Source of the DNA: Butyrivibrio sp.
GTDB lineage: Bacteria > Bacillota > Clostridia > Lachnospirales > Lachnospiraceae
Direction of reading: 5' to 3'
Assembly: GCF_017635265.1 (NCBI RefSeq)
Contig: NZ_JAGBLU010000027.1
Span: 1 to 34,845 of the forward strand
DNA length: 34,845 nucleotides
Numbering within the stretch: position 1 is the first letter of the stretch; each line of letters starts with the position of its first letter. This document shows, in pieces, positions 3,576 to 23,028 of the stretch. The position numbers and the translations under genes were made by a program. Below the pieces are notes generated by a model. That model had not been told where the DNA came from and ran no database searches. It saw only the letters and a program-made list of their open reading frames with translations.

Positions 3576-3608
3576 AGTATCCTCAACCAAATCACATAAT
3601 AAAAATAT

Positions 3609-3667
3609 CATATTCTCACGAAATCCGCAGTTTATGCGGATTTCTGAAATTTAGTTCAAAAAGTCAT
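3609..3667 (+). repeat. Partial copy (copy D) of the three-hairpin repeat
   Basis: This 59-nt stretch matches the last third of the elements at 20473–20618, 21012–21156 and 21155–21300 with only a few differences: the hairpin GAAATCCGCA/TGCGGATTTC, then a tail ending in AGTTCAAAAAGTCAT. Hairpins 1 and 2 are absent. It lies in the prmC–prfA gap, so on the mRNA of that operon it would appear as its complement. Confidence 0.8.
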
Positions 3668-20472: not shown

Positions 20473-20618
20473 ATGCATTCTTGAATCAACAATTCAAGAA
20501 TGCATCAACCAAGCCAATTTGAATCGACTTCGTCGATGAGGCTTGGTTGACTCTTTACTCATATTCTCACGAAATCCGCAGTATATGCGGATTTCTGATA
20601 TTTAGTTCAAGATGTCAT
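20473..20618 (+). repeat. Three-hairpin repeat, copy A
   Basis: Hairpin 1 is a 14-bp stem (20473–20486 with 20492–20505, ATGCATTCTTGAAT). Hairpin 2 is an 11-bp stem (TCAACCAAGCC, 20505–20515 with 20540–20550) enclosing a small TCGAC/GTCGA hairpin. Hairpin 3 is a 10-bp stem (GAAATCCGCA, 20571–20580 with 20586–20595). A conserved tail ends in GATGTCAT. Two more full copies follow after the tRNA gene. Confidence 0.9.
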
Positions 20619-20777
20619 CTTTTCATGCATCCTCATCGCAATGCCGGAGGTGCCACTCAAATAGTAACAATGCGACCGCTACTTATATCTTAACACAAAT
20701 GCATATTCGGTGTTTGGATAACTTATGTTTGAGCAAGCATAAACTTCGAATTTTATGGAATTTTTTTTAAAATTATG
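20619..20777. other. AT-rich spacer upstream of the tRNA promoter
   Basis: No gene. A loose inverted repeat TTATGTTTG/CAAGCATAA occurs near 20727–20746, followed by a T-rich run before the tRNA promoter. Confidence 0.3.
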
Positions 20778-20807
20778 TTGACAACTAATGCTCCTCTGGA
20801 GTATATT
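20778..20807 (+). promoter_or_regulatory. Strong promoter for tRNA-Met
   Basis: Consensus TTGACA at 20778–20783, then TATATT at 20802–20807 with an 18-nt spacer. The tRNA begins 41 nt after the -10 box. Confidence 0.8.
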
Positions 20808-20848
20808 ATACAAGTCGGCTGCGACAGACAGTTCGATAGAAACCTTAT

Positions 20849-20922
20849 GGCGAGATAGCTCAGTTGGCTAGAGCACGCGGTTCATACCCGCGGTGTCGAG
20901 GGTTCGAATCCCCCTCTCGCTA
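20849..20922 (+). tRNA. tRNA-Met (anticodon CAT)
   Basis: A complete cloverleaf: acceptor GGCGAGA/TCTCGCT with G·T at the first pair, D arm GCTC/GAGC, anticodon stem CGCGG/CCGCG enclosing TTCATAC, T arm GAGGG/CCCCC with a G·A-type irregularity at its end and the TTCGAAT loop, discriminator A. CCA is not encoded. The mismatch-type first pair and stem fit elongator tRNA-Met, but a CAT tRNA modified to lysidine and reading Ile AUA cannot be excluded by eye. It is the only RNA gene found, in the middle of the repeat island. Confidence 0.95.
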
Positions 20923-20930
20923 CTAATAAT

Positions 20931-20971
20931 AACTCTGAAATGCAGATAATTACTGCGTTTCGGAGTTTTTT
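20931..20971 (+). terminator. Intrinsic terminator of the tRNA transcript
   Basis: AACTCTGAAATGCAG pairs with CTGCGTTTCGGAGTT (two mismatches) around a seven-base loop, ending in six T. It lies eight bases after the tRNA. Confidence 0.9.
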
Positions 20972-21011
20972 GTTTTAAGTCAAAAGCAATGTCTTAAAAA
21001 TGTCTTAACCT

Positions 21012-21156
21012 ATGCATTCTTGAATCTACAATTCAAGAATGCATCAACCAAGCCATTTTAAATCAACTTTGTCAATGAGGCTTGGTTGACTCTTGACTCA
21101 TATCCCACGAAATCCGCAGTTTATGCGGATTTCTGAGATTTAGTTCAAGATGTCAT
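21012..21156 (+). repeat. Three-hairpin repeat, copy B
   Basis: Same order as copy A. Hairpin 1 and hairpin 3 stems are intact. In hairpin 2 the outer stem is intact but the inner TCGAC/GTCGA has become TCAAC/GTCAA, losing two pairs. The tail ends GATGTCAT, and copy C starts within it. Confidence 0.9.
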
Positions 21157-21300
21157 ACATGCTTAAATTAAAAATTTAAGCATGTATCAACCAAGCCATT
21201 TTAAATCGACTTCGTCGATGAGACTTGGTTGACTCTTCACTCATATTCTCACGAAATCCGCTGTATATGCGGATTTCTGATATTTAGTTCAAGATGTCAT
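21155..21300 (+). repeat. Three-hairpin repeat, copy C, with a different but still paired stem 1
   Basis: Hairpin 1 has an unrelated sequence (ATACATGCTTAAATT, 21155–21169) that still pairs perfectly with 21173–21187 (15 bp, loop of three). Hairpin 2 keeps most of its outer stem, one pair lost, and its inner TCGAC/GTCGA. Hairpin 3 is GAAATCCGC/GCGGATTTC. The tail is identical to that of copy A. B and C are in tandem. Confidence 0.9.
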
Positions 21301-21327: not shown

Positions 21328-21720
21328 TTTACCCAATGTTCCGGCCAGCCATTGGGTAATTCGACAATTCTCCACATATTTACCCAAGCTTACTCAATAT
21401 TCATTGGTAAATAACTGTTTTTTGCTTTCTTTACCCATGGCATTCCTTTTTCAAGAGCATCGCGGGTAAAAAGAACAAAATGCAGGTTTTTACCCATGAG
21501 TTAGTGAATGATTTGGGTAAAGGAATAAAAAGAGTTATTTTTACCCGAGAATTATTAAAAAGCTTGGGCAAATATGAAAAAAATAATAGATTTACCCAAT
21601 GAATGTTTTGATAACTCGGGTAAAAGTCAGAGAAAATTAAATATTGCCCATGGGCACTATGAAAATACGGGCAAAAGGTCAGAAAATTAAAAAATTACCC
21701 GGAGGTAGAAAAGTGTCCGT
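21328..21720. repeat. 51-nt periodic array of paired TTTACCC/GGGTAAA motifs
   Basis: Eight TTTACCC-like motifs start at 21328, 21379, 21430, 21489, 21540, 21591, 21643 and 21694, spaced 51, 51, 59, 51, 51, 52 and 51 nt. Each of the first seven is followed 26–27 nt later (34 in unit 3) by its complement GGGTAAA. Unit 7 reads TTGCCC…GGGCAA, a matched change in both arms. The DNA between the motifs has diverged. On the – strand one frame is open for about 85 codons (about 21694 to 21433) and reads as 17-residue repeats with LP and WVK/RVK at fixed places, but is broken by a stop and a one-base shift further on. It may be a decayed repeat protein or a hairpin array. Confidence 0.75.
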
Positions 21721-21760
21721 CACAACTGTTCCTAGATTCGGAACCTGAGGCAGAAAAAAA

Positions 21761-21939
21761 GCCACACCGCAGGTGCTTGCCCTTTACTGGTTCTGATGGA
21801 AACGCTACAATGCTGTGTCAGACGGTGTGCGAAAATCTACTGTTCCAATCATCCTCGCCGTCGGCAAGATGGCTGCTGCGCTTCCATCAGGTTCAGTCAA
21901 GGGTGGCGTACGCAACCGATTCACTTACAACCATACAAA
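21761..21939 (+). repeat. Nested-hairpin repeat, copy 1
   Basis: A ~180-nt element repeated at 22848–23028 in the same orientation with roughly 85% identity by eye. Its two halves pair: CCCTT-ACTG…CTGATGGAA around 21780–21803 with the complementary stretch ending near 21904, and inside it GACGGTG with CGCCGTC. A short open frame with an ATG inside is not conserved at protein level between the copies. Confidence 0.85.
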
Positions 21940-22034
21940 GTTTGAATTCTTTTGCTTATAATAATACTTTCGCACATATAAAGGGATAGTATTTTGACGT
22001 AAGCTAAATGCTTCATTTGCATTTCGCTTTTTGA
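21940..22034. other. Spacer with a 17-nt motif repeated in inverse orientation
   Basis: AGTATTTTGACGTAAGC (21988–22004) recurs as its exact complement at 23055–23071, after the second nested-hairpin copy. The two copies therefore frame the membrane-protein gene and the inverted repeat. Confidence 0.6.
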
Positions 22035-22845: not shown

Positions 22846-22847
22846 CA

Positions 22848-23028
22848 GCCACACCGCTAGGTGCTTGCCCTTTACGGGTTCTGATGGAAACGCTAAAATG
22901 CGGTACCCGACGGTGAGTGAAAATTCACTGTTCCCATCATCCTCACCGTCGGCAAGATGGCTACTGTGTTTCCATCAGGTTCAGTCAAGAGTGGCGTACG
23001 CAGCCAATCCACTTACGTACATACAAAA
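22848..23028 (+). repeat. Nested-hairpin repeat, copy 2
   Basis: Direct repeat of 21761–21939. The inner stem is longer here (CCGACGGTGAG with CTCACCGTCGG) and the outer stem GATGGAAAC/GTTTCCATC is perfect, although the sequence differs from copy 1 at many points. Confidence 0.85.

Follow-up and report, generated by a model that had tools for sequence, protein, structure and literature searches.

What are the three-hairpin repeats that lie on either side of a tRNA-Met gene in this Butyrivibrio genome? They could be structured RNAs, palindromes of the REP/BIME type or mobile hairpins, and a preliminary description made from the letters alone named all of these. The window (the whole stretch of DNA that was analysed, 34,845 nt) contains three full copies, A, B and C, and a fragment, D.

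Copies in the window

The preliminary description was accurate as to the sequence, the coordinates and the three-hairpin order of A, B and C, and as to fragment D. The features are as follows (H1, H2 and H3 are the three hairpins, and H1 is stem 1).

20473..20618, + strand: copy A, full element including both AT ends
20473..20505, + strand: H1 of copy A, with 14-bp arms; the left terminal repeat is its 5' arm
20506..20549, + strand: H2 of copy A, with outer stem CAACCAAGCC/GGCTTGGTTG, internal loop and inner stem ATCGAC/GTCGAT
20550..20570, + strand: linker of copy A, unpaired, carrying the conserved TCATATTCTCAC
20571..20595, + strand: H3 of copy A
20596..20618, + strand: tail of copy A; the right terminal repeat is its final 14 bases, which match the complement of the 5' end imperfectly
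20849..20923, + strand: tRNA-Met, between A and B and outside the element
21012..21156, + strand: copy B, full element, unit 1 of the B-C tandem
21155..21300, + strand: copy C, full element, unit 2 of the B-C tandem, with the other H1 allele
21155..21187, + strand: H1 of copy C, with 15-bp arms; three pairs are changed on both sides relative to A
21155..21156, no strand: AT common to B and C, the dinucleotide duplicated upon insertion
3608..3667, + strand: fragment D, consisting of the end of the linker, H3 and tail and nothing else

All three copies fold stably, with energies of -60 kcal/mol for A, -58.4 for B and -51 for C and z-scores of -9.5, -9.3 and -9.1; among 200 shuffles of each copy none folded equally well. 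Stem 1 of C had been described as changed on both sides with its pairing kept, which is correct: the double changes relative to A are G-C to A-T, T-A to G-C and G-C to A-T, and an extra pair on the loop side has been gained through a one-sided change. B and C are tandem units with one common AT (21155-21156). Hairpin 3 is separable, as had been proposed, for D retains only H3 and tail and other copies also show H3 alone. All copies in the window point the same way; genome-wide there are matches on both strands, so the common direction holds solely inside the window.

A second dispersed repeat family is found just downstream of the element copies, at 21447-21940 and 22847-23027 of the window. 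Its stretch 21501-21732 occurs again at 96% in G000:C141, 21447-21918 is matched at 89% in G076, and 21760-21939 is matched at 87% within the window itself (22847-23027).

Distribution of the family

A DNA search of the same genome gave 45 matches at E<=1. They are spread over many contigs and both strands, and at least one of them (C137:21155-21187, minus strand) is the palindrome of C itself read a second time. Nineteen of the 45 cover at least 126 of the query's 153 bases. The element is about 131-148 bp in size and has no gene inside. At least 106 stretches in Butyrivibrio carry the 39-base core pattern. Copies for the counts of target sites, tandem units, orientation, G-T and A-C events and private changes given below were picked by a CACGAAA..CGCA-like pattern; this fixes CACGAAA..CGCA or close forms, so the 5' arm of H3 is biased in those counts.

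5'-truncated copies like D are present elsewhere in the genome (L023-L029), and stem 1 is found alone as a copy (L039, L041 and L042). In L023-L029, L015 and L019 the 3' end is kept and the 5' part is gone, with several breaking near the H2-H3 linker; the breaks may mark a hotspot, or these copies may be a mobile unit of their own. Solo H1 hairpins, made up of the terminal repeat and its complement, were observed at L039, L041, L042, L067, L268 and L364, some with a target duplication. The preliminary description had considered that C might be a chimera of two unrelated hairpins. This is ruled out, since its stem-1 allele TTAAATT..AATTTAA recurs in nine other copies (L002, L012, L013, L031, L035, L036, L039, L041 and L042). 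The T-A to G-C pair of C is present in one of 37 sequences of alignment A2, described below.

Among 61 genomes searched by DNA, 23 match, all of them within the 37 of the same genus; none of the other 24 does. A covariance model built from 37 copies finds the dispersed family, sought in the genome and its relatives as the preliminary description had advised, in at least 19 of 150 genomes of the bacterial family, namely its own genome and 18 other genera, with several copies apiece in many of the 18. In a phylum-wide search of 299 genomes with the model, only two genomes match, both of the same genus. Copy and genome counts from the model are lower bounds, as at most 21 candidates per genome were scored (10 in the 299-genome search) and the filters were strict. 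G012 contains many copies that are 97-99% identical to the query; so many near-identical copies at G012 sites are a sign of recent spread. G021, a genome 83% complete, has 15 DNA matches. Phage records and viral contigs gave no element match, and the sole plasmid record with matches is NZ_CP146964.1 of Butyrivibrio fibrisolvens (242,710 bp), where there are 4 places, the best with 72.1% across the whole query. Rfam 15 has no gathering-threshold match on the window's copies (those reported fell below the gathering scores), and in nine sources with related elements the elements themselves are likewise unmatched at that threshold. A literature search by title and start of abstract found no paper on this repeat.

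A and B do flank tRNA-Met in the window, but the arrangement is not conserved in orthologous regions. In G012 the corresponding region lacks the three copies, and its single element is at another position, beyond the tRNA; in G073 and G076 the stretch examined contains no element. The placement beside tRNA-Met is thus insertion history.

Conserved pairing of the fold

Alignment A2 consists of 37 copies. A, B and C were joined by 34 of 38 cluster representatives; L037, L021, L027 and L156 were left out as not full length or with H2 deleted. Double changes occur in 21 of its 40 pairs; shuffles average 11.7, with 0 of 500 reaching 21, and slid versions give 3-7. Overall, 93.3% of 1449 cells are paired. 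The preliminary description had named copies in which stem 1 differs without pairing as counter-evidence. The copies do not bear this out: the inner eight pairs of stem 1 are formed in 94.2% of cells and the outer six in 75.9%. Alignment A3 comprises 28 core sequences from several genera (18 of 20 representatives, without L332 and L368, and 10 that were hand-picked), and its outer H2 is partly misaligned. Here 21 of 24 pairs are double-changed, compared with 17.7 in shuffles, of which 1 in 500 reaches this number, and covariation is 0.687 against at most 0.217 when slid. The stems therefore covary in both alignments, as the covariance check put forward at the outset was meant to reveal, and the pairing of the H2-H3 core is conserved.

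Folded singly, most A3 sequences form the same two hairpins; L063, L066, L317, L330, L344 and L358 differ in H2. Most of them, whatever the genus, retain the asymmetric internal loop of H2, and the unpaired linker and the top of H3 are conserved with their orientation kept. Private changes affect 33 of 8193 stem positions and 75 of 6805 others (103 copies, 8 clusters). In L193, L265 and L276, H2 is perfected or shortened, as template switching or between-arm deletion would leave it; perfected palindromes (L193 and L265) are few among the copies seen. Of the earlier statement that the folded form is under selection, the part on pairing holds, as it is kept far beyond chance, but the double changes could also have come from copying between the arms.

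Insertion and AT-duplicating ends

The suggestion of a mobile hairpin was right. In B. proteoclasticus P18, a duplicated segment (99.6% identical over 254 bases on one side) provides a filled and an empty allele of one site, L143. The filled allele has gained 144 bp, and AT is found once in the empty site and at both ends in the filled one; the pair requires AT, so that a TA duplication is ruled out for L143. G012 has an empty B+C site, whose form is compatible with the same AT rule. L261 and L270 are a third filled/empty pair and fit AT or TA; L270 is positioned exactly at an old tail, and L261 is its empty form. Where the two flanks of the element meet, exactly two bases are shared in 25 of 32 same-locus rows (the L143 empty site being set aside), and 7 of 32 show other spacing.

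The target has a one-sided preference: across 150 sites, some of them at truncated copies, where the 5' boundary does not mark a genuine end, its right half resembles the left end of the element (R0 A69/G18, R1 C69, R4 T67). The terminal inverted repeats of the AT form are imperfect, with a median of about 10 matches in 14. In 29 of 37 copies the 5' arm is a closer match to its H1 partner than to the tail; 1 copy is a tie, and in 7 the tail fits better. The element is short, multicopy and gene-less, has terminal inverted repeats and duplicates its target site; empty sites and duplications identify it as mobile and MITE-like.

A second kind of ends

The H2-linker-H3 core is not tied to the AT form. 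In the Butyrivibrio copies L030, L195, L204, L213 and L236 it is preceded by a GTTACTGTTCA-like repeat, and of the best matches from the 18 other genera, 11 have GTTACTGTTCA-like ends, as against 7% of random 40-base stretches. Ends were paired around the linker motif, giving 30 pairings at 27 places (L320, L321 and L371 count twice) in which, by construction of the search, both terminal repeats are within 2 mismatches of GTTACTGTTCA. The flanks are duplicated at 8 of 8 bases in 13 of these pairings and at 7 of 8 in 6, while 11 have no duplication shown; the 19 of 30 that reach 7-8 bases compare with 2.45% for shuffled partners. The duplication made on insertion is thus 2 bp (AT) for the usual Butyrivibrio form and 8 bp for the form with GTTACTGTTCA ends. 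Solo or internally deleted forms retain the duplication (GCTTATAT at L364, TGATAATC at L372), as would follow from deletion between the 3' arm of H1 and the tail, which are direct repeats. In one other genus (L317 and L353) the ends resemble those of the Butyrivibrio AT form. The core is present in the best match of G121 (L326).

One reading is that H2-linker-H3 is a portable folded module used by at least two unrelated transposition systems, in which the fold and a few unpaired bases are passed on while stems, ends and target rules are exchanged; we regard this as a tentative idea, somewhat short of an even chance.

Search for the mobilising transposase

Five transposase families (HTH_38, Y1, DDE_3, Transposase_mut and DDE_Tnp_1) were scanned for both kinds of ends in 5-10 genomes, and in these loci no transposase could be recognised with certainty as a mobiliser with matching ends. 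For HTH_38, 0 of 15 loci in 10 genomes have a matching end pair; the hits are scattered, with 2 mismatches. Y1 genes, which the preliminary description had linked to a REP-type transposase (TnpA_REP), were found in 9 of 10 genomes, G021 having no hit. None of 20 Y1 loci is bordered by a matching end pair, although the L303 locus does contain a complete element. In view of this result and of the target duplications, REPIN/RAYT was rejected, and the REP/BIME interpretation is not supported. An autonomous partner was also sought in paired terminal repeats: the pair in G151:C8, 1.5 kb apart, brackets, among the matches listed, a coding stretch which from its ORF we take to be seryl-tRNA synthetase. 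A further 20 loci, each surrounding a single end in G007 or G151, have no inverted pair at IS distance.

IS4-family genes (NF033592 above cut-off; PF01609) were found in insertion sequences at L411 (1058-2805) and L412 (924-2806), bordered by GTTACTRTTCA-like sequence. The L412 insertion sequence, with ends CAATGTCATTTAG, lies within the tail of a complete three-hairpin element and has a 10-bp duplication, CTGTATGAAC; the host element has its own 8-bp duplication, AACTTTTT. With its duplication inside the element tail, L412 reads as a nested visitor and not as the parent. At L411 both tips are GTTACTATTCACAGTC and the 8-bp flanks are near-identical (AAAATTCG/AAAATTTG). It is ambiguous: the ends may belong to an autonomous element, or an insertion sequence may have entered a solo hairpin. 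Among the loci scanned it alone fits an autonomous partner, and it is the best candidate lead to a mobiliser. IS4-family insertion sequences with CAATGTCATTTAG ends were seen in or beside hairpin repeats, and L415 lies between CTACTGTTC repeats.

Strand signals

Conservation of pairing through double changes is what a structured RNA would show, and it does not separate RNA from DNA. If selection acted on RNA, G-U should exceed A-C on the transcribed strand. Independent events in the stems amount to 8 G-T and 13 A-C (p 0.38), and the cells of A2 without the three outermost H1 pairs contain 10 G-T and 26 A-C (n=1338). G-T is not commoner than A-C, so no transcribed strand is visible, which speaks against the structured RNA of the preliminary description. 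In 31 tRNAs, G-T makes up 45 of 665 pairs, a comparison that holds for the G-T share alone because ARAGORN brackets hide tRNA mismatches. Relative to co-directional neighbour genes, 66 of 127 classified elements are antisense and 31 sense; a further 15 elements are in ORFs of at least 100 aa and 13 are without a flanking ORF. Both the orientation and the surplus of A-C point, if weakly, to transcription of the minus strand.

Proposed explanation and alternatives

The explanation we favour, to which we give about an even chance as a whole, is a gene-less mobile element whose transposase is supplied in trans and whose H2-H3 core probably has a role other than serving the transposase. The element begins at its 5' end with a terminal repeat that folds with its complement into H1, followed by H2 with its asymmetric internal loop, an unpaired linker (CTGAATCAtnTTCTyACG in most copies) and H3 with a conserved CAG-nnn-TG top. 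The tail is also complementary to the 5' end, though more loosely, and 5' end and tail would together act as the terminal inverted repeats for the transposase. Solo H1 hairpins, judging from their form, may have arisen by deletion between the 3' arm of H1 and the tail. As the core is common to two kinds of ends that differ in the length of their duplications, its function most likely lies elsewhere than with one particular transposase. The core may act on neighbouring sequence or transcripts and so make the insertion tolerable to the host, for instance by stopping read-through or protecting a transcript end; such a host-level effect is a weak best guess, preferred because the two kinds of ends share the core, and RNA function, DNA recognition and arm-copying are also in play. 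Clean cut-and-paste does not explain the 5'-truncated copies, and the double changes may partly stem from arm-copying.

The fold might instead matter as DNA, with a mobilising enzyme or host protein reading the hairpins on single-stranded or cruciform DNA and the linker and H3 top serving as sequence marks during transposition. Pairing that is nearly all Watson-Crick and strand-symmetric agrees with this, as do the linker and H3 top that keep their orientation in A3. One core with 2- and 8-bp duplications suggests two enzymes, however, and no such enzyme was found in the transposase loci scanned; we consider this reading rather unlikely. Polymerase template switching between arms has been described (PMC8794818, in the part available), and if one arm were copied onto the other both sides would change together, so that pairing would be kept by mutation. 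The perfected palindromes of L193 and L265 and the lack of wobble bias are in keeping with such copying. Perfecting would nevertheless erase the asymmetric loop of H2, which persists across genera in most of A3, and the conserved linker and oriented H3 top are unpaired; it is a serious rival, but as the main cause it seems improbable.

If the elements were genes for a structured RNA that have become mobile, this would account for the stable fold, the covariation, the conserved unpaired bases and the orientation bias against neighbouring genes. The reading is doubtful, as neither strand has G-T in excess of A-C (the weak minus-strand lean apart), tRNAs do carry G-T at 45 of 665 pairs, and the elements examined gave no Rfam match. 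A separate question is which enzyme moves the AT-duplicating form. IS30 elements duplicate 2 bp and insert beside their own ends. An IS30-like transposase would fit the resemblance between the right half of the target and the left end of the element at 150 sites, the insertion of L270 at an old tail with L261 as its empty form, and the two bases shared by tandem units in 25 of 32 rows. The one-sided target preference and the 0 of 15 HTH_38 loci with a matching end pair tell against it, and we judge it unlikely.

Comparison with known elements

Small gene-less mobile elements have mostly been described by sequence, one genome at a time. Here one fold with largely free stems links elements in 19 sampled genera of a single bacterial family and with two duplication lengths. 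It offers a natural data set on a long-standing question, whether such hairpins are under selection as RNA or as DNA or are simply kept perfect by arm-to-arm copying.

ERIC, RUP and Correia elements duplicate TA on insertion. The Butyrivibrio form differs from such TA-duplicating MITEs in duplicating AT, which L143 needs and L261/L270 fits as well as TA. Prokaryotic MITEs are, in the parts of the sources consulted, small, multicopy, gene-less and intergenic, with terminal inverted repeats, target duplications and stable folds (PMC10969869, PMC4133298). In the same partly consulted accounts, the element is like Correia/CREE, ERIC, RUP, TIMEs and QMITE2 in size, copy number, repeats, duplications and folds. 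It has three separate hairpins, whereas MITEs have one long fold; in a comparison that is not exhaustive, it also stands apart in stems that covary across genera and in one core with two kinds of ends. REP/REPIN sequences with RAYT (Y1) are likewise dispersed palindromes and may be cross-mobilised, but the element has target duplications and terminal repeats, and G021 has its 15 matches without Y1. The IS4-group insertion sequences at L411 and L412 share GTTACTRTTCA-like borders with it and differ in their own ends, CAATGTCATTTAG. Rfam families resemble it in their covarying hairpins; at the gathering threshold neither the window's copies nor the elements of the nine sources match any of them, and its nearest likeness is to the MITEs.
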